From: Pseudomonadota bacterium
GTDB lineage: Bacteria > Pseudomonadota > Gammaproteobacteria > Burkholderiales > SG8-39
Length of the DNA: 7,309 bases
Assembly: GCA_021848555.1 (NCBI GenBank)
Contig: JAJZUN010000127.1
Location: 1 to 7,309, forward strand
Direction: 5' to 3'
Positions 1 to 7,309 of this stretch are shown in pieces. A model generated the notes under the pieces. That model saw only the letters and a program-made list of their open reading frames with translations. It did no database searches and had not been told where the DNA came from. The first letter of the stretch is position 1. Each line of letters starts with the position of its first letter. The position numbers were made by a program, and so were the translations under genes.

Positions 1-502
1 CGCCGGCATGCGCGGCAAGCGCTTCGCCTTTGTCGAGAAAGCCACGTCGGCCGGATACCTCTTCCCGCTCGCCTATCTCCACGCTCGCGGGATCAAGGAC
101 GTCGATGCGTTTCTGGGTGCATCGTATTTCACCGGCAGCCACGATGCCGCCATCTACGAGGTGCTGCAGGGTGCGGCCAACATAGGCGCGGCGAAGGACA
201 CAATCTACGACTGGCTGCGGACCGTGGAGCCGCGGATCGACAAAGAGCTGGTAGTGCTGGCCAAGTCGGCGGAGTTCGCTTCCAACGGGCTGGGCGTGAG
301 GAAAGACATGGACCCCTCCCTGAAGGCAAAGCTTAAATCGCTGCTGCTGCACTTGCACGAAAGTGCGGAAGGCCGGAAGGTCCTGGAATCGCTGCGCGCG
401 AAACATTTCATCGAGACTCGCGTGGAGGACTATCAGAGCGTTTTCGACGAGGCCGGAAAAGCCGGCGTCGACATCAGGAAATACGAATATCGCAACGAAT
501 GA
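1..502 (+). CDS. PhnD-like phosphate/phosphonate ABC transporter substrate-binding protein (C-terminal part)
   Basis: This is the C-terminal half of a periplasmic binding protein of the PhnD / phosphate-phosphite-phosphonate family, which captures the oxyanion for an ABC importer. The frame is open to the left edge (bases 2-7 read Ala-Gly before the first Met at 8), so the Met at 8 is probably internal. About 166 residues are visible, against roughly 300 for the family. Family hallmarks seen are the 'GKRFAFVEKATSAGYLFP' segment at the start, the 'GASYFTGSHDAAIYEVLQG' segment that normally contributes to the ligand pocket, a following 'ANIGAAKD', and a C-terminal region ending in 'AGVDIRKYEYRNE'. 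TGA stop at 500-502. The gene converges on the minus-strand block with a 47-base gap and is probably unrelated to it. The bound ligand cannot be deduced; some PhnD-like proteins act as sensors rather than transporter parts, and no permease or ATPase gene is in view. Confidence 0.8.
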   Translation, partial: AGMRGKRFAFVEKATSAGYLFPLAYLHARGIKDVDAFLGASYFTGSHDAAIYEVLQGAANIGAAKDTIYDWLRTVEPRIDKELVVLAKSAEFASNGLGVRKDMDPSLKAKLKSLLLHLHESAEGRKVLESLRAKHFIETRVEDYQSVFDEAGKAGVDIRKYEYRNE

Positions 503-549: not shown

Positions 550-2124
550 TCAGAGCAGCAGATCGAACTCAGTCGCAGCCAGGATATTCCCGCGCAGCCA
601 CTCTTTCAGCCACAGGTCGCGCACGTCGATCGGGTTGTAGTTGTCGGTCAGGATCGCGCCGGGTAACCGGTCGGGAAGCTGCAGGGGATGGCGTAGCGCC
701 TGCCGCGCCAGGGTCTCCGCCATCGGGTGTATCGCCATGCGTTCGAGTTCGCCGGCGTCGGGCGAGCGCTGCGCGCCGTCATAGGCGATCAGCACCAGGT
801 TGCCGGCGGCATCGCGCCCGTTGGGGGCAAACAACGGATAAACCGCTACATTGGCGAACACCGCACGCAGCGTGTTGATCACGGCATGCGTCATGTCCGA
901 GTGCTTTCCCAGACTGCCGATCAGATTGATCGCGACCACGCCCTGGCCGGTCAGCCGCGCTTTGGCCAGGCGCACCGCCTCCAGGCTGAGCAGGTGACCC
1001 GGCGTGGTGTCGCCGCTGAATACGTCGAGGATCAGGTAGTCGTAGCGATCAAAGTCGCGGGCGAGAAAGGCGCGCGCATCCTCGACGAACACGCGCGTGC
1101 CCGGGTCCAGGCCGAAGTATTGTTGCGCCAGCGCGACCACCTCCGGGTCGATATCGACGGCGTCGGTTGCGATGCCGCGCGCCTGGTACCAGCGCGGCAC
1201 GACGCCCGTGCCGAGTCCGATCACCAGGCAGCGCCTGCCTTCGGCGTGCAGGGCCACGGGCAGCGCCTGCAGCAGGTAAGGGTATTCGTAGACCGAAAGC
1301 GCGTTTGCCAGGTCGACCCCTCCCTGTATTTGGCCGTCGATAACGAGTTCGCGCGTACGCCTGGCACCATAGCGGTATTCGACCACCTTCAGATTGCCGT
1401 AAAAGGAGTCGCGGTTGAGGAGCACGCTGGCGCGAGTGCCGCCGGCCAGGGTCACCTGCGGCAGTCTGGTCGGCGGAAGGGCTATCAGGGGCAGGAATGC
1501 GGCGAGCGCCAGCCATTTGCCGCGCCACAGCGCGAAGTAGGCCGCGCCCAGAGCGAGCAGCAAGGCGCCGGATAGCCAGAAAATCCTGTCGACGCCGAGG
1601 GTGGGAATAAGAAAGAAGCCGGTAACGATGGTGCCGACGACGCTGCCCGCAGTCGAAGCCGCATAATACGCGCCCACGGTTTTTCCGAGGTGCTGCATTT
1701 CGCGCGCCGCGAGCTTGATCACCCAGGGAGAAACGCAGCCGAGCAGAAACAGCGCCGGGCCGAACAAGAGCAGCGCGCTCGCGAGCGCGCCCCAGCGCAG
1801 CCCCAGCGGCAGCGACAGCTTGAGTACCAGCGGTTTCAGCCAGGGCACGAGCACCACCAGAGCGCCGGCCGCGATCAGGATCAGGTAAAGCGCGTCGGGG
1901 GAATCGCGGCGATCGGACCAGCGCCCGCCGATGGCATAGCCTGCCGCCAGCGCCACCAGCGTGACTGTGATGAGCGAAGTCCAGACGAACAGGCTGACCC
2001 CGAAAAACGGCCCCAGGACCCGGGAACCGAGCACCTCGATCACCATCACCAGCGCGCCGCAGAGCACGGTGGTGGCGACGAGATAATAGCCGAACCAGCG
2101 CTGGGGGCGCGTCGCGCCGCTCAT
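550..2124 (-). CDS. Membrane-fused spermidine synthase-like (PABS-domain) protein
   Basis: A 524-residue protein with an N-terminal multi-pass membrane domain (roughly residues 10-220, hydrophobic segments near 14-35, 45-67, 78-98, 113-137, 155-175 and 180-215), followed by a Rossmann aminopropyltransferase/methyltransferase-like domain (about 235-450). Visible motifs: 'GLGTG' (303-307) for decarboxylated-SAM-type nucleotide binding, 'DIDPEV' (324-329), 'VEDAR' (347-351), 'LDVFSGD' (366-372) at the position of the catalytic Asp loop, and a C-terminal 'LTDNYNP' (492-498) typical of the fused membrane/spermidine synthase family. Most members of this fused family have no proven product, so true spermidine synthesis is uncertain. 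The gene starts 31 bases after the heptahaem cytochrome gene on the same strand, suggesting co-transcription. No strong Shine-Dalgarno sequence precedes the ATG at 2124; that start is preferred because the membrane helices begin soon after it. Confidence 0.85.
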   Translation of the reverse strand: MSGATRPQRWFGYYLVATTVLCGALVMVIEVLGSRVLGPFFGVSLFVWTSLITVTLVALAAGYAIGGRWSDRRDSPDALYLILIAAGALVVLVPWLKPLVLKLSLPLGLRWGALASALLLFGPALFLLGCVSPWVIKLAAREMQHLGKTVGAYYAASTAGSVVGTIVTGFFLIPTLGVDRIFWLSGALLLALGAAYFALWRGKWLALAAFLPLIALPPTRLPQVTLAGGTRASVLLNRDSFYGNLKVVEYRYGARRTRELVIDGQIQGGVDLANALSVYEYPYLLQALPVALHAEGRRCLVIGLGTGVVPRWYQARGIATDAVDIDPEVVALAQQYFGLDPGTRVFVEDARAFLARDFDRYDYLILDVFSGDTTPGHLLSLEAVRLAKARLTGQGVVAINLIGSLGKHSDMTHAVINTLRAVFANVAVYPLFAPNGRDAAGNLVLIAYDGAQRSPDAGELERMAIHPMAETLARQALRHPLQLPDRLPGAILTDNYNPIDVRDLWLKEWLRGNILAATEFDLLL

Positions 2125-2155: not shown

Positions 2156-2764
2156 TCACATCTTGTGGCATTGTTGGCAGCTCGCCATGCCTTTGCCGAA
2201 ACGTGTCAGTTTGGCATTTACCGACCTGTGCGGTTCATGGCAGGCGGCGCAGTAGAATTTTTTCCCCGGCCGCAGCGGGTCCGCACGCGCCTTGCCGTCG
2301 TCGCCCAGGGGGTGTCCGCCGCGCGGAAAACCGGCATGGGGCTTTTTCGGAACCTCCGCATGGCAGTCCAGGCACACCTTCACGGGCTCCTTGGTCAACA
2401 GGCCCTGGTTGTCCGAGGCATGCGGGTTGTGACAGCCGAGACACATGCCGCCCGCAACCGGTGCGTGGACGACCTTGCCCTCGAACAATTTCTTTTCATG
2501 GCAATTGATGCACAGATCGGGCGGCTCGGCCGACAGCCCTTTTTCGATCTTGCCCTTCACCTTGTGCGGCAGGACGCTGGTGTCGAGGTCGGTATGGCAG
2601 CTCACGCAGCCCATCTGCACCGCAGGGTGCACTACTTTCTTGTCCACCAGCGCAGCATGGCATAGAAGACAGGGATTGTCCTGTGCCTGAGCCGGCCCCA
2701 CATATGCCAGTGCGAGGACCACTGCGCCGGTCAGCCGCGCAAGCAAATTTCGTTGGGCTTTCAT
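2156..2764 (-). CDS. Secreted heptahaem c-type cytochrome (doubled CXXCH family)
   Basis: A 202-residue periplasmic multihaem cytochrome. An N-terminal signal peptide (residues 1-27; basic MKAQR, hydrophobic core, likely cleavage after AQA at 25-27) is followed by seven CXXCH haem-attachment sites with Cys at 32, 53, 85, 108, 131, 172 and 196. Besides the seven CXXCH histidines there are exactly seven others (H46, H67, H100, H115, H143, H151, H179), enough for bis-His ligation of every haem. Paired motifs such as 'KVVHPAVQMGCVSCH' and 'KVVHAPVAGGMCLGCH' mark the doubled-CXXCH repeat typical of low-potential electron-transfer cytochromes. The frame stays open upstream to 3115, but that stretch overlaps the TPR part of the preceding gene and lacks a signal peptide; the ATG at 2764 has a strong ribosome binding site. 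System II genes (ccsA, resB) that could mature it lie upstream on the same strand. Redox partner unknown; the adjacent oxidase-like membrane protein is the obvious candidate. Confidence 0.92.
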   Translation of the reverse strand: MKAQRNLLARLTGAVVLALAYVGPAQAQDNPCLLCHAALVDKKVVHPAVQMGCVSCHTDLDTSVLPHKVKGKIEKGLSAEPPDLCINCHEKKLFEGKVVHAPVAGGMCLGCHNPHASDNQGLLTKEPVKVCLDCHAEVPKKPHAGFPRGGHPLGDDGKARADPLRPGKKFYCAACHEPHRSVNAKLTRFGKGMASCQQCHKM

Positions 2765-2828: not shown

Positions 2829-4784
2829 CTAGCGCGCCTTCGGTTTGCCGCGCGCGGCCTGCTGCGCGAGTTCGGTTTCCCATTCCGATATCTTGCCTTC
2901 CGCTCTGCGCCGGAACGGGTCCTCTGCCTTGCTGCGGTGGACGAAGGTGCGCATCGCCTCGCGCGCGCCACGCAGATTGCCGCTTTTTTCGAGCGCGATC
3001 GCCAGCCCCCAATAGGCGTTCGCCTGATCCGGGCGCAGCGTGGTCGCGCTGTCGAAGAAATCGGCCGCCGCGGCGTAGCGCTCCAGGCCGAGCAGCGCAA
3101 ACCCCATGTTGACATGGGCTTCGGGCATGTCCGGCGCGAGCTTGAGCACGCGGTGAAACGCGGTCAGTGCATGCTCGTATTGTTTCGCGTGCAGCATGAC
3201 CACGCCTTGCTGGAAGCGCTGGGCGATTTCGGCTTTGCGCTGTTGATCGGCGTGCCCGCCCGGGTCGAGTTTCGGATCGGCAATCGGCGGCGGCGTAGTG
3301 AATACGCTACTGTCGCGCGGCAGCCACGCGATCGCCAGTCCGCCCAATACGACCGAGACCAGCATCAGCCCGAGCGCCTTGATGCGGTTGTCGACTCGAG
3401 CGCGCGCGCCTCGCGCCGCCGCCGCGCCGCGCAGCAGGGAGGCGAGCACCGGCAGGGCGCAGCCCAGCATGCCGATGAAAGCGATCAGTCCGCCGGCGCC
3501 GACCACGGCGAGCGTCACCAGGGTGGCCGGGTCGGCGCCGAGCAGACCGCTGCCGGGCACTTTGCGCTGCACGTTGTACAGCCCCGACCAGACCAGGCCC
3601 AGCGCCATCAGCATCAGCCCCAGGCCATAGACCGCCGGCTGCCAGCGTGCAAAGCGCGAGCTGGGCAGTTCGAACCCCAGTTGCGGCAGCAGGTGGATCG
3701 CGATGCCCATCAGCGCCAGGGCCACCGCGCCGACGGTGCCGTGGTAGTGCCCGGTGATCATCACGTTGTTGCTCGAGATCGCCGCGCCAGCGATGCAGCC
3801 GAACATGAACAGCGTCACCGACAGCATCAGGCTGGCGCGCGCCGAATCATAGACGCGGTTCTTGCGCTGGGCGCGCAGCGCGCTGGCGAGCAGATGCAGG
3901 CCGAGCCAGGCCGCCGCCGGCCAGGAGGCGAGCGCCATCAGCCCGGTATACGCGTCGCGCAGCTCGCTGCCGCCGGCCGGAAACGCGAGGTGTATGCCGG
4001 GGGCGAGCAGCACCGGTGCGGCGGTCAGCGCGAACGAGGCGAGCACCGCGCGCGGCGACACCGGCACCGGCACCTTGCCGGCGGCGGCGAGGATCAGCCA
4101 GGACACCATCATGATCAGCACGTAGCCGAACTGCATCAGATGGCCCGGCGCCCACATCAGTTTCTCGAAATAGGCTTCCCGCGCAAGCGGCTGCGGCAGC
4201 GCGAAGCGCATCCAGGCGAGCGCGGCGAGCGCCATCAGCATCGGCAGGATAGACAGCTTGATGCCCCAGTGCATGGCCGCATCGGGCGTGACGTTCAGCG
4301 CGAGCCGCGGCCAGGCGCGCGCGAGCGCCGTGACGCCGGCGAGCGCCAGCGCCAGCGCGAAAGCGCCTATCCCGGCGAGAAACACCGGGTTGTTGAGCAG
4401 GGGCACGTAATTGCTCATCAGCGCCGGGCCGTTCGAGACAAACGGCGACAGCGCCATCGCCACGGTGCCCGCAGCGGCGCAGGTGAAGGCCGCCCACGGC
4501 ACGTAGGCGATGCGGGCGCTGGCGCGCACGCCGACGGCGCTCCACAGCAGCGCCGCATGCGCGAGGAACAGGATCAGCACCGCGAGGTCCACATGCAGCA
4601 CCAGCGCGGTGCGGTAAAAATCCACGCCGGGCAGCAAGCGCCCGACGAACGGGGTGCGCGCGATCGACAAGGACAGCGCGAAGACGGTGGACAGAGCCAG
4701 CGAACTCACCGCCAGCGCGAGCCAGGCCGTGACCAATCGCCGCGGCTGTCCCTGCGGAATCTCCAGTTCGTAATGTCCGCTCAT
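2829..4784 (-). CDS. B-family haem-copper oxidase subunit I-like protein with altered active site and C-terminal TPR domain
   Basis: A 651-residue protein with about 13 predicted membrane helices (residues 17-488) and a soluble tail with three TPR-like repeats (about 518-551, 554-585, 588-618). The membrane part resembles ba3-type subunit I: 'LHVDLAVL' in helix 2 (H64, low-spin haem ligand), 'MWAPGHLMQF' in helix 6 (H215, CuB ligand position), 'PGIHLAF' in helix 7 (H265), 'TGHYHGTVGAVALALMG' in helix 10 (H346 and H348, haem ligands) and 'MLMALGLVWSGLYNV' in helix 11. Compared with the remembered ba3 pattern, the cross-linked Tyr of helix 6 is Phe219 and one of the paired CuB histidines in helix 7 is missing (His-Leu rather than His-His). 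Arg/Lys-rich loops alternate as expected for a cytoplasmic N-terminus, which puts the TPR tail in the periplasm. The gene starts 4 bases after ccsA ends, so translation is probably coupled. It may be a divergent NO reductase or other reductase, or a dihaem electron carrier; ordinary oxygen reduction is doubtful. Confidence 0.8.
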   Translation of the reverse strand: MSGHYELEIPQGQPRRLVTAWLALAVSSLALSTVFALSLSIARTPFVGRLLPGVDFYRTALVLHVDLAVLILFLAHAALLWSAVGVRASARIAYVPWAAFTCAAAGTVAMALSPFVSNGPALMSNYVPLLNNPVFLAGIGAFALALALAGVTALARAWPRLALNVTPDAAMHWGIKLSILPMLMALAALAWMRFALPQPLAREAYFEKLMWAPGHLMQFGYVLIMMVSWLILAAAGKVPVPVSPRAVLASFALTAAPVLLAPGIHLAFPAGGSELRDAYTGLMALASWPAAAWLGLHLLASALRAQRKNRVYDSARASLMLSVTLFMFGCIAGAAISSNNVMITGHYHGTVGAVALALMGIAIHLLPQLGFELPSSRFARWQPAVYGLGLMLMALGLVWSGLYNVQRKVPGSGLLGADPATLVTLAVVGAGGLIAFIGMLGCALPVLASLLRGAAAARGARARVDNRIKALGLMLVSVVLGGLAIAWLPRDSSVFTTPPPIADPKLDPGGHADQQRKAEIAQRFQQGVVMLHAKQYEHALTAFHRVLKLAPDMPEAHVNMGFALLGLERYAAAADFFDSATTLRPDQANAYWGLAIALEKSGNLRGAREAMRTFVHRSKAEDPFRRRAEGKISEWETELAQQAARGKPKAR

Positions 4785-4788
4785 CGGA

Positions 4789-5601
4789 CTACACGGCGCC
4801 CTGATGCACGGCCGTGGTAACGAAAGGCACGCCGAAGAAAGTGAAGAAAGCCAGCACGAACACCACCAGGATCAGCAGCGCCCCGGTGCGCGGCGTGGCT
4901 TTCATTGCATAGCGCCAATGCAGCGCGAACGCGAGCGTGAGCCAGGTGATGAAGGACCAGGTTTCCAGCGGATCCCAGGCCCAGTAGCGGCCCCAGGCGT
5001 CCTGCGCCCAGATCGCGCCGGTGATCAGCATCAGGGTCTCGAAAATAATCCCCAGCGCCATGAAGCGGTAGGCGAGATCATCGAGCCGCTCGTCGTTTGG
5101 CAGCCGCGTCAGGCGCAGCGTGCCTATGCCCGCGTCGCGCAGCAGGATCACTCCTGCGATGCCCACCGCCACCAGCACCGTGCCGGAAAAGAGCTTGGCG
5201 AAACCGATATGGATGAACAGCCACACCGTATGGTAGGTCGCCGGGAGATGCCCTTTGTCCGGATCGTTCATCAACATCCAGCCCAGCAGGATGAACAGGA
5301 TCGGCATGACGATGGCGGCGATCGGCCGTACCGGTTTGTAGCGCCAGTAGGCGAGCGTGAACACGCATGCGAGGCTCCAGGCGTTGCTCGAGAGGAATTC
5401 GAACAGGGTGATGTAGGGGCCATGGCCGAGCCGCTCCCATCTGAGGCCGATCGAGCCGCCGTGCAGCGCCAGGGCGAGCAGCAGCAGGCCGAGCACCGTG
5501 CGCTCGGGCCGCTTGTCGAGCACCACGCCGAAAATCGCCACTGCGCCGGCGACGACGTAGGCGACCACCGCCGCCCATAACAGTTGCATCTCAAAAGCCA
5601 T
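4789..5601 (-). CDS. ccsA: System II cytochrome c synthetase component CcsA (CcmC/CcsA family)
   Basis: A 270-residue multi-pass membrane protein that, with ResB/CcsB, exports haem and attaches it to CXXCH motifs of periplasmic apocytochromes. The tryptophan-rich WWD signature is clear ('WAQDAWGRYWAWDPLETW', residues 198-215), flanked by the expected periplasmic histidines H131 ('FIHIGFAKL') and H266 near the C-terminus ('TTAVHQG'). H47 in 'LALALHGGS' matches the conserved membrane histidine, followed by 'GPYITLFEFLSSNAW' (61-75). Length is normal for free-standing CcsA. The frame has two upstream in-frame TTG codons (5607, 5604), but the GAGGA at 5608-5612 is spaced 6 bases from the ATG at 5601, so that start is chosen. 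The partner resB lies upstream on the same strand but is separated by vapBC. The gene leads into the oxidase-like gene with a 4-base gap. Confidence 0.92.
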   Translation of the reverse strand: MAFEMQLLWAAVVAYVVAGAVAIFGVVLDKRPERTVLGLLLLALALHGGSIGLRWERLGHGPYITLFEFLSSNAWSLACVFTLAYWRYKPVRPIAAIVMPILFILLGWMLMNDPDKGHLPATYHTVWLFIHIGFAKLFSGTVLVAVGIAGVILLRDAGIGTLRLTRLPNDERLDDLAYRFMALGIIFETLMLITGAIWAQDAWGRYWAWDPLETWSFITWLTLAFALHWRYAMKATPRTGALLILVVFVLAFFTFFGVPFVTTAVHQGAV

Positions 5602-5607
5602 CAACAA

Positions 5608-5690: not shown

Positions 5691-6095
5691 TTATACAGAC
5701 CAGTTCTCCACTTTCAATGCCTTGACCCGGCGGAACTCGCGCACATTGTTCGTCACCAGAACCGCCTTGAGGCTGCGCGCGTGAGCCGCGATCAACAGGT
5801 CGTTGGCGCCTATCATTGCGCCACGGAGTTTGAGGTTTGCGCGGATGTCCGCATAGTGTTCGGCAGCCGCGGCCGACCAGTCGATGACTTCCAGATGCCG
5901 GATGAACGCATCGAATGCGGCACGCACCTGTTTTGGCCGGGCTGACAACTTGACGCCGTACAGCAATTCGGCCACGGTCACAACGGATACGGCCTGGTCC
6001 GTGATGGGTATCGAGCGAATCCGGTCCAGCAGGGCCGGATGGGAGCGCTTCATGATGTAGGAGCAGATATCGGCGTCCAGAATGTAACGCGCCAT
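5691..6095 (-). CDS. vapC: VapC-family PIN-domain toxin (RNase)
   Basis: A 134-residue PIN-domain ribonuclease of the VapC/FitB group. The acidic metal-binding residues are in place: D7 in 'YILDADICSYIM', E43 in 'VTVAELLYGV', D99 in 'IGANDLLIAAHA', with N116/N117 in 'LVTNNVREF' at the fourth active-site position. Family members cleave RNAs such as initiator tRNA or rRNA and are neutralised by VapB; the target here is unknown. The start ATG shares one base with the vapB stop (TGATG), the usual translationally coupled arrangement. Length and motifs are intact, so the toxin is probably functional. It lies between resB and ccsA, an unusual place for a toxin gene. Confidence 0.93.
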   Translation of the reverse strand: MARYILDADICSYIMKRSHPALLDRIRSIPITDQAVSVVTVAELLYGVKLSARPKQVRAAFDAFIRHLEVIDWSAAAAEHYADIRANLKLRGAMIGANDLLIAAHARSLKAVLVTNNVREFRRVKALKVENWSV

Positions 6096-6322
6096 CAGAA
6101 ATCCCGCTCCTGCAGCGGCAAATCCTCGACCCCGTCCATGAAATCGGCGGCAGCCACCGGGCCGTCCGCCAGGTAGGCGTCCCAGTTCGGAGGGCGCGGC
6201 GACAGCACCACCTCGTTGCCCTGTTTGCGTATGAACACCTCATCCACGCCGAACTGAAAGTCCTTGGGCAAGCGGACAGCCTGGCTGCGGTTGTTGAGGA
6301 AAATTCTGGCGGTACGGTCCAT
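6095..6322 (-). CDS. vapB: VapB-family antitoxin (AbrB/SpoVT-type DNA-binding)
   Basis: A 75-residue antitoxin. Residues 1-45 ('TARIFLNNRSQAVRLPKDF', then 'EVFIRKQGNEVVLSPRP') form the swapped-hairpin AbrB/SpoVT DNA-binding domain. The acidic C-terminus (about 47-75, with 'WDAYLADGP' and 'FMDGVEDLP') is the part that normally occupies the VapC active-site groove. The frame is open upstream to 6490, but that extension would run through the promoter and into resB. The ATG at 6322 has an AGGAG ribosome binding site 6 bases upstream (6329-6333). It overlaps vapC by one base. Expected to repress its own promoter together with VapC through the inverted repeat at 6366-6389. Confidence 0.92.
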   Translation of the reverse strand: MDRTARIFLNNRSQAVRLPKDFQFGVDEVFIRKQGNEVVLSPRPPNWDAYLADGPVAAADFMDGVEDLPLQERDF

Positions 6323-6328
6323 GGTGTG

Positions 6329-6333
6329 CTCCT
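6329..6333 (-). promoter_or_regulatory. Ribosome binding site of vapB
   Basis: AGGAG on the minus strand, 6 bases before the ATG at 6322. This fixes the vapB start and rejects the in-frame extension to 6490. Confidence 0.8.
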
Positions 6334-6350
6334 GCTCAACGGGAGGCGTC

Positions 6351-6378
6351 AGTATACGCCCTCCGTTGTATATGTCAA
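6351..6378 (-). promoter_or_regulatory. Sigma-70-type promoter of vapBC
   Basis: Read on the minus strand, a perfect -35 box TTGACA (6378-6373) is followed by 16 bases and a -10 box TATACT (6356-6351, one mismatch to TATAAT). Transcription would start near 6344, giving a leader of about 20 bases that contains the vapB ribosome binding site. It is the only clear promoter seen inside the minus-strand block, so it may also feed ccsA and the genes beyond if transcription passes the hairpin at 5655-5682. Confidence 0.75.
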
Positions 6379-6389
6379 AGTATATACAA
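6366..6389. promoter_or_regulatory. Inverted-repeat operator for VapB/VapBC
   Basis: TTGTATAT (6366-6373) and ATATACAA (6382-6389) are perfect 8-bp inverted arms separated by 8 bases. The repeat covers the -35 box of the vapB promoter, so a bound VapBC complex would block RNA polymerase. This is the usual autoregulatory arrangement of vapBC operons. It is AT-rich in an otherwise GC-rich neighbourhood. Confidence 0.75.
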
Positions 6390-6411
6390 TGGGCGGAGGT
6401 CACCCAGCCGT

Positions 6412-7309
6412 CTACCCGCCTTCCAGCCACGGCCGCGAGGCGAACTTTGCCCAGAAATGCCACGCGAGGCTCATCACTGCCACGATGCACGCGGCGAGCA
6501 GCCAGGGCATGGTCCTGTCGTAGAACACCTCATAGCCCATCCATTTGCGCAGACCCTCGTACACCAGCGTGCCCCCGGCGAGTTGCACCCGTGCGCCCGG
6601 GACGAGTTCGTGCACCGCGTCGCCCGAGCGCAGGAGGATCGCGTGCCGCCGCGGAACGCGGAATTCCGAGGGCCGCGCGGGATCGAGTATCAGCTCGTCG
6701 ATGCGCAGCGCGAGCGAGAGCTTGAGGCTGCTGCCCGGCGGGGTCCACTCCTGCACCTGGCGGTTCTCGTTGGCCGGATACGCCGGCAGATGCACGCCGC
6801 CGCGCACGGGCGTTCCATCTGCCGGCAGCCACAGGAATACGGGGGCGTAGCCCTTGTTGACGGTGGTGGAGAAGCGGTAGCCCTGGCGCACCAGCGGATC
6901 CATGTCGCTGACGATCGCCTCGCGCGGGGTGCCGTTGTCCTCTACCCAGCGCACCCGGTTGCGGGTCTGGCCGCGGCGGATGCCCGGGGCGTAGTCGATG
7001 GTGAAACCCAGGTTCTGGAACGACGCCCGGTCGAGCCGCCACCGATGCCAGGGACCCGCTTCGAATCCTGCCAAGCGGCCGTCGAAGATCTGCCCTTCGG
7101 CGAGTTCGAGCCCGCCCTTGAGGTAGGTGAGCCGCCCGGCGGCCACCAGCAACACGATGGCGATCAGCGCCAGATGAAACAGCAGCAAGGCGCTCTGGCG
7201 CCGGAACACGGCGTTGGTCGCGACGGCGGCGCCGAGGTTGGCGGCGAACAGCGCGAGCGGCAGCGCGAGCGGCCAGGTCATCTGCTCGCGGCTTTCGAGC
7301 GCCACCGCC
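6412..7309 (-). CDS. resB: System II cytochrome c biogenesis protein ResB/CcsB (N-terminus cut by the window edge)
   Basis: About 299 residues of a ResB-family membrane protein, the partner of CcsA in delivering and ligating haem to apocytochromes c. The visible order is a helix ('WPLALPLALFAANLGAAVATN'), a second helix carrying the conserved membrane histidine ('SALLLFHLALIAIVLL', His codon at 7174-7176), a periplasmic domain of about 190 residues, and a final helix ('PWLLAACIVAVMSLAWHFW') with a short tail. ResB proteins normally have three helices before the periplasmic domain. Only two are seen and the frame is open to the right edge, so the start lies outside; the GTG at 7305 and ATG at 7281 are probably internal. 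TAG stop at 6412-6414. The vapB start is 89 bases downstream; ccsA, its usual direct neighbour, is displaced by vapBC. Confidence 0.8.
   Translation of the reverse strand, partial: AVALESREQMTWPLALPLALFAANLGAAVATNAVFRRQSALLLFHLALIAIVLLVAAGRLTYLKGGLELAEGQIFDGRLAGFEAGPWHRWRLDRASFQNLGFTIDYAPGIRRGQTRNRVRWVEDNGTPREAIVSDMDPLVRQGYRFSTTVNKGYAPVFLWLPADGTPVRGGVHLPAYPANENRQVQEWTPPGSSLKLSLALRIDELILDPARPSEFRVPRRHAILLRSGDAVHELVPGARVQLAGGTLVYEGLRKWMGYEVFYDRTMPWLLAACIVAVMSLAWHFWAKFASRPWLEGG

Follow-up and report, generated by a model that had tools for sequence, protein, structure and literature searches.

COX1*, an oxidase subunit I homologue without the CuB histidine pair that is encoded beside cytochrome c maturation genes

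Introduction

The window, i.e. the whole analysed stretch of 7,309 nucleotides, encodes on its minus strand a homologue of haem-copper oxidase subunit I (COX1) whose haem ligands are present and whose copper site is altered, which raises the question of what such a protein does. A preliminary description of the gene proposed that it is not an ordinary oxygen reductase and offered three options, namely a divergent NO reductase, a reductase with another active-site metal or a haem-only electron carrier. Here we refer to the protein and its relatives as COX1*. The open-licence literature contained no description of this family that we could find, and, judged from its sequences, COX1* appears to be a variant of the haem-copper fold that has not previously been described.

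Fold and active site of the window protein

The window protein consists of a COX1 fold, followed by a 13th transmembrane helix and a TPR domain. Its features, all of them on the minus strand, are the following:

2829..4784, minus strand: COX1*-TPR fusion protein of 651 aa (ORF call; PF00115 and TPR families; structure model)
3408..4784, minus strand: COX1* domain, residues 1-459, with 12 transmembrane helices (helix ends from the model)
3324..3386, minus strand: 13th helix, residues 467-487, predicted to take the chain to the periplasm (model; loop charges)
2850..3263, minus strand: TPR domain, residues 508-645, predicted to be periplasmic (families, model, loop charges)
4593..4595, minus strand: H64, low-spin haem ligand (ba3 H72), in 168/168 sequences
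4140..4142, minus strand: H215, helix-6 His (ba3 CuB ligand H233), in 168/168
4131..4133, minus strand: Q218, near the high-spin haem (ba3 position 236), a Gln shared with eNOR, in 168/168
4128..4130, minus strand: F219, at the position of the cross-linked Tyr (ba3 Y237; diagnostic Gln in eNOR), F in 161/168
3990..3995, minus strand: I264-H265, at the position of the CuB His-His pair (ba3 H282-H283), from alignments
3741..3749, minus strand: H346-Y347-H348, high-spin and low-spin haem ligands, both His in 168/168

The 12-helix subunit I fold and the three haem-ligand histidines place the protein in the haem-copper oxidase superfamily by fold and ancestry, and descent from a subunit I of the B-family is the best explanation of its origin. 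The loop charges favour the periplasmic side for the TPR domain, but the number of Arg and Lys residues in loops 1-2 and 11-12 exceeds the expectation of a simple positive-inside rule and counts against this assignment. A comparison of the TPR domain with TPR_CcmH_CycH resulted in an E-value of 0.011, which is under the cut-off, and the NCBIfam matches are TPR models under their respective cut-offs.

The residues H64, H215, F219, H346 and H348 had been named correctly in the preliminary description. Its helix-7 pair H265-L266 has to be replaced by I264-H265, because these two residues were aligned to the CuB His-His pair by an HMM profile comparison with ba3, by MAFFT with eNOR and by MAFFT with ba3 plus eNOR. 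The alignment check that had been proposed there recovered neither a Tyr nor a second His of the CuB pair against ba3 and eNOR. The window protein retains both haem sites and basic residues at the two positions of ba3 R449-R450, with Arg at the first of them, and the ba3 residues Y237, Y244, Y248, S309 and T312, which we take to be the proton path of this B-family oxidase, correspond to F219, M226, L230, A291 and L294. None of the proton-path residues of ba3 represents the majority among the 38 other COX1* rows.

The window protein accordingly falls short of an O2-reducing haem-copper oxidase, for which we looked for three CuB histidines, a cross-linked Tyr in helix 6 and the B-family proton path; in cbb3 oxidases the active-site Tyr is located on another helix. 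It also deviates from eNOR (F219 for Gln, I264-H265 for His-His) and from cNOR and qNOR, which combine a helix-6 His-x3-Glu motif with a His-His pair (F219 for Glu, I264-H265 for the pair). The proposal that oxygen is not reduced in the usual way is well supported, since H215 is the only invariant CuB ligand and the proton path is lost.

Conservation and phylogeny of the COX1* family

A database search retrieved 95 homologues, a few of which are named 'cbb3-type cytochrome c oxidase subunit I'. Our comparative analysis is based on 168 distinct sequences from 80 genome loci and later genome searches; 194 of the 252 matched ORFs were within the score and length limits, and 168 of these were distinct. 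The residues H64, W211, H215, Q218, W229, H346 and H348 are identical in 168/168, and the Arg at ba3 R449 is kept in 167/168, the remaining sequence having a gap. Position 219 harbors F in 161, Y in four, I in two and L in one of the 168 sequences, and the His pair is absent in all four that have Tyr. A His-His pair at 264-265 occurs in 0/168; residue 265 is His in six and Tyr in 139 sequences, and a full CuB site was seen in none of the COX1* homologues examined. The held-out set from a later search, comprising ten new fused matches and two COX1*/TPR pairs, retains H64, W211, H215, Q218, W229, H346, H348 and R407 in 12/12, and His is present at 264 or 265 in 0/12. Residue 219 is variable in these 12 sequences (L 4, F 3, N 2, H 2, W 1), thus indicating that the Tyr position is not under strong constraint.

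A haem pocket without variation next to a drifting CuB side is the pattern expected of a copper-free haem protein, and the retention of the three haem histidines together with the loss of the CuB pair and the proton path argues for a copper-free protein with two haems. This pattern is common to the 95 homologues and the 168 sequences, so a sequencing variant or local decay was rejected as its cause; COX1* is a family with a defined residue signature and gene context, not an oddity. One protein with 55% identity (P0010) has Tyr at position 215 and no listed COX1 domain and may be a decaying copy.

Matches are found in 26/300 genomes of the order of G003 (E <=1e-30; five with a COX1*-TPR fusion, three with TPR without COX1*), in 58/299 genomes of the phylum (E <=1e-30), and, at E <=1e-20, in 78/369 genomes of the class of G003 and 63/199 of the family of G001, all of which are counts that mix both branches of COX1*, TPR-only genes and some eNOR matches.

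In the phylogenetic tree (75 rows, quick search, SH-aLRT support), COX1* forms one clade (100) that is the sister group of eNOR (97), with ba3 outside (94). Because the tree includes a row derived from a wrong-strand ORF (L232, branch length 3.42) and a single ba3 row, this placement is tentative. Two NORs with the motif HLWVE are placed outside the COX1*-eNOR clade. Within COX1*, the branch located in eNOR operons (clade A; 96) separates from the branch located in cytochrome clusters (clade B; 91), which is the branch of the window.

The comparison within clade B also bears on the residues that might replace the lost ligands. Q218 was a good guess as a pocket residue, being invariant in the 168 sequences and in the 12 held-out ones. 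H364 is His in only 3/24 sequences of the window's branch, which speaks against its proposed use as a replacement ligand, and both H364 and L266 were rejected as functional residues since conservation is absent. Another active-site metal is not supported for the window's branch, where residue 265 varies (A, Y, H, S, P or other). A metal held by H215 and Tyr265 was rejected for this branch, with Tyr265 in 5/24 sequences; the idea stems from clade A, in which residue 265 is Tyr in 134/144 and such a metal is conceivable.

COX1* in eNOR operons

The COX1* proteins of branch A are stand-alone proteins of about 460 aa. We counted their neighbours in 40 loci with both flanks of at least 8 kb, on the same strand and within 12 kb, so that the numbers are lower bounds: eNOR (over 300 bits) is located nearby in at least 35, CtaB in at least 34, SCO in at least 36, a cytochrome b-ferredoxin-FlpD protein in at least 35 and NirS in at least eight loci. 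CcsB, ResB and the 11-haem protein were detected in 0/40 of these loci by the probes used. The partner genes were assigned to eNOR on the basis of their HSSQQ motif, and of the Gln at the Tyr position that is described as diagnostic of eNOR (PMC8756737).

Three further observations concern the composition of these operons. In the eNOR operon, cytochrome b carries fused 4Fe-4S and FlpD (MvhD) domains (L018:7308-8888), an unusual link of an NO reductase operon to ferredoxin-type electron transfer. The gene preceding COX1* (L018:9366-9911; cluster 5, median 171 aa, in 34/80 loci) has no Pfam family at E 1e-3. A Nitrospirota MAG harbors COX1* after an A-type oxidase subunit I and CtaB, with eNOR replaced (L032:7509-11365).

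Two alternative functions may be weighed here. The view of COX1* as a genuine NO or O2 reductase whose active site has diverged would agree with its grouping with eNOR and with the invariance of one CuB His and the pocket Gln, but the His-His pair is missing throughout, the ba3 proton-path positions are lost and residue 219 can be any of F, Y, I, L, W, N and H. Moreover, the clade A operons already contain an eNOR subunit I with HSSQQ, His-His and HFH, which argues against the divergent NO reductase of the preliminary description. This already disfavoured explanation is very improbable; of the three initial options, the haem-only electron carrier fits best.

The second alternative is that COX1* guards against, or senses, NO or O2 by means of its haem; the open high-spin haem together with H215 and Q218 would bind the gas and protect, or signal to, the haem-handling machinery. 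The sister branch lives with NO reduction (eNOR in at least 35/40 loci, nirS in at least 8/40), the pocket formed by W211, H215 and Q218 is invariant, and NO and nitrite are reported (PMC9697910) to impair CcmE and cytochrome c synthesis; the first and the last of these points are what makes a gas guard conceivable. However, no signalling domain is fused to COX1*, the TPR domain not counting as one, and CcmE was not seen nearby in many clade B clusters, so that we consider a gas guard or sensor improbable.

COX1* in cytochrome clusters

The genes of the window are arranged in the order ResB, toxin-antitoxin pair, CcsB, COX1*-TPR and seven-haem cytochrome. The neighbours that are relevant for the cluster are:

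6412..7308, minus strand: short ResB-like protein, open at the end of the window (PF05140, E 1e-9)
4789..5607, minus strand: CcsB (ResC), haem export/lyase subunit (PF01578, E 2.7e-29)
2156..2764, minus strand: c-type cytochrome with seven CXXCH motifs, directly downstream of COX1*-TPR (PF09699, E 9.6e-29)

Directly upstream of COX1* is the ccsB gene, whose stop is separated from the start of COX1* by 4 bp; its product matches TIGR03144 with E 2.2e-42 yet remains below the cut-off of that model. The window is cut at the ResB gene, before the expected place of the 11-haem gene. A tblastn search at E 1e-5 in 57 clade B and TPR-only loci revealed no match for the seven-CXXCH cytochrome, suggesting that the cluster of the window may serve a different cytochrome than the 11-haem one.

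The remaining genes of the window are the toxin-antitoxin pair (5691-6490, minus strand), which separates ccsB from the ResB-like gene, shares their strand and comprises a PIN toxin (PF01850, 5691-6095) and a MazE-like antitoxin (PF04014) just upstream of it, a fused MFS/spermidine synthase (550-2124, minus strand; NF037959, E 3e-65) after the seven-CXXCH cytochrome, and a partial phosphonate-type ABC substrate-binding protein (2-502, plus strand; PF12974, E 1.3e-31). A 50% identical match to the MFS/spermidine synthase is located between ResB and CcsB in L197 (12627-14183).

The typical cluster of branch B consists of c7 trihaem cytochromes, NHL proteins, an undecahaem cytochrome, ResB, CcsB, COX1* and TPR. 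We examined a set of 26 loci, made up of 11 of the 80 genome loci, three further loci and 12 split regions, from which L132 was left out as a repeat of L007. In 25/26 the end of the ccsB match lies 6 to 219 bp ahead of the COX1* match (distances between tblastn matches); the exception is L011 (Magnetococcales), in which none of the searched neighbours is present. The TPR follows COX1* in 26/26 loci, within one reading frame in 13 and as a separate downstream frame in 13; 12 of the 16 COX1*/TPR neighbour pairs were taken by choice as the split regions, and L199 has a redoxin between COX1* and TPR. Locus L004, from Noviherbaspirillum denitrificans TSA40, likewise encodes a COX1*-TPR protein. ResB, the 11-CXXCH protein, NHL proteins and c7 trihaem cytochromes are located upstream in most branch B loci. 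The held-out loci exhibit the same organization: CcsB is directly upstream of COX1* in 11/11 of those that have upstream DNA, ResB is present in ten and the 11-haem gene in eight of them, the others lying on contigs or stretches that end early. The place next to ccsB is thus conserved in 25/26 loci, in 11/11 held-out loci and in the window.

Other clusters harbor the TPR gene without COX1*. From about 33 TPR-only matches we picked such loci by hand, and in 15/15 a gap of 114 to 204 bp separates the end of the ccsB match from the TPR match; L219 to L221 were left out of this count owing to the order ResB, TPR, CcsB or a TPR beside CcsB alone. The existence of these TPR-only clusters indicates that COX1* is dispensable, and together with the fusion and the place of COX1* between ccsB and the TPR gene it points to a unit ResB-CcsB-(COX1*)-TPR with COX1* as an optional member. 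Given that ResB and CcsB are established cytochrome c maturation proteins, this unit most likely functions in cytochrome c maturation.

Additional maturation genes after the TPR argue for an assembly role. CcmABCEFGH and CcmI follow in L131 (Pfam, NCBIfam), with the same order in L129, CcmF-G-H-I in L001, L197, L198, L201 and L202, and a full ResB plus a CcsB-like gene in L196 and in the TPR-only loci L128 and L133. Since L131 carries its own CcmI beside COX1*-TPR, the TPR does not appear to be simply a CcmI. By contrast, a match to Ccm, a second ResB or a CcsB-like protein after the TPR was found in 0/12 held-out loci (0.1 to about 10 kb downstream), on which evidence COX1* could equally belong to an electron pathway. 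The dispensability of COX1*, the isolated locus L011 and the lack of CcsB and ResB in the clade A loci likewise weigh against the assembly role.

The main rival explanation is such a pathway, i.e. an inner-membrane conduit in which COX1* passes electrons between the periplasmic trihaem and undecahaem cytochromes and the membrane chain, with the TPR domain docking the holo-cytochromes. It derives its standing from the surrounding cytochromes, whose genes (c7 trihaem, NHL, 11-haem) are located on the COX1* strand in most clade B loci and match the Uet electron-uptake pathway by composition, as the latter is described in PMC10734462. The retained haem sites, and likewise the basic residues at ba3 R449-R450, would suit this task, as would the missing maturation genes of the held-out loci, and a different TPR gene of Tenderia, apparently co-transcribed with trihaem cytochromes, is proposed as a cytochrome aligner (PMC5371394). 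Yet the place of COX1* is fixed between ccsB and the TPR gene and not among the cytochromes, the TPR-only clusters lack COX1* without an obvious replacement carrier (by eye, in the listed ORFs of six clusters), and neither a quinone site nor a partner subunit was identified. We therefore regard a conduit as rather unlikely.

A tentative model and its meaning

Our direct observations are the residue pattern across the family, a fold predicted by modelling, the order of the genes and the occurrence of COX1* and TPR as fused, adjacent and TPR-only forms. They lead us to propose, with some hesitation, that COX1* is a copper-free di-haem membrane protein and that in the window's branch, fused to or next to a TPR domain, it belongs to a ResB-CcsB-COX1*-TPR unit that matures and assembles the adjoining multihaem c-type cytochromes. 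In this assembly model ResB and CcsB would export and attach the haem, and the TPR domain would bind and hold the unfolded or newly made cytochrome. COX1* putatively binds a low-spin haem (H64/H348) and a high-spin haem (H346), the latter under a distal pocket of H215, Q218 and W211. We infer a redox or haem-handling role for it: its domain at the assembly site may supply or take electrons, or hold haem, and would thereby deliver electrons to haem or thiols, or offer a place where haem is held. A broader scenario, in which an oxidase subunit that lost its copper site was recruited via fusion with a TPR chaperone to a machine that assembles multihaem 'wires' (or reduces haem) and in which the second branch serves eNOR likewise, is conceivable but doubtful.

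Since some database entries of COX1* carry the name 'cbb3-type cytochrome c oxidase subunit I', the family can inflate counts of O2 and NO reductases in metagenomes; an H-x-x-Q motif in helix 6 without a His-His pair in helix 7 would separate COX1* from the reductases. If the assembly role is true, the haem-copper fold has acquired a new use here, and the family offers a way to study how many haems are loaded into conductive cytochromes. If the conduit is true, COX1* is a candidate for the inner-membrane link of a Uet-type electron-uptake pathway. The natural occurrence of fused, split and COX1*-free clusters makes the choice between assembly and conduit directly testable.

Comparison with known systems

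Among the known systems, eNOR shares with COX1* all three haem histidines and, counted from the helix-6 His, a Gln at +3 and a Trp at +14. At the position mostly occupied by Phe in COX1*, eNOR has its diagnostic Gln; it also differs in retaining the His-His pair, Y248, S261 and S309 in 12/12 rows, and is preceded by a subunit-II-like gene (PF00116 just under the cut-off). The subunit I of Thermus ba3 resembles COX1* in its fold and haem ligands: the COX1* profile retrieved 18 sequences of solved structures (E 1.2e-9 to 4.6e-7) that are named cytochrome c oxidase subunit 1 or ba3, and those also found in other structure searches are Thermus ba3. It differs from COX1*, which lacks the CuB triad, the Tyr and the proton-path residues, and to which the window's branch adds a TPR domain; in the clade B clusters, the COX2 probe detected no oxidase subunit II.

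The ResB-CcsB system (System II) and CcmF-G-H-I/NrfEFG (System I type) are comparable in their neighbourhood and in a membrane-anchored, predicted periplasmic TPR protein; to our knowledge, no known cytochrome c maturation unit contains an oxidase-derived di-haem protein. Most clade B loci, with their 11-CXXCH protein, one or two NHL proteins and several c7 trihaem matches, are likened by composition to Uet, the undecahaem electron transfer cluster of Tenderia and Gallionella (UetJ undecahaem, UetHI NHL, UetDEG trihaem; accessible part of PMC10734462). The same part of this source names UetA to UetJ and does not mention ResB, CcsB, COX1* or the TPR protein, in which the clade B clusters differ from Uet as described there.
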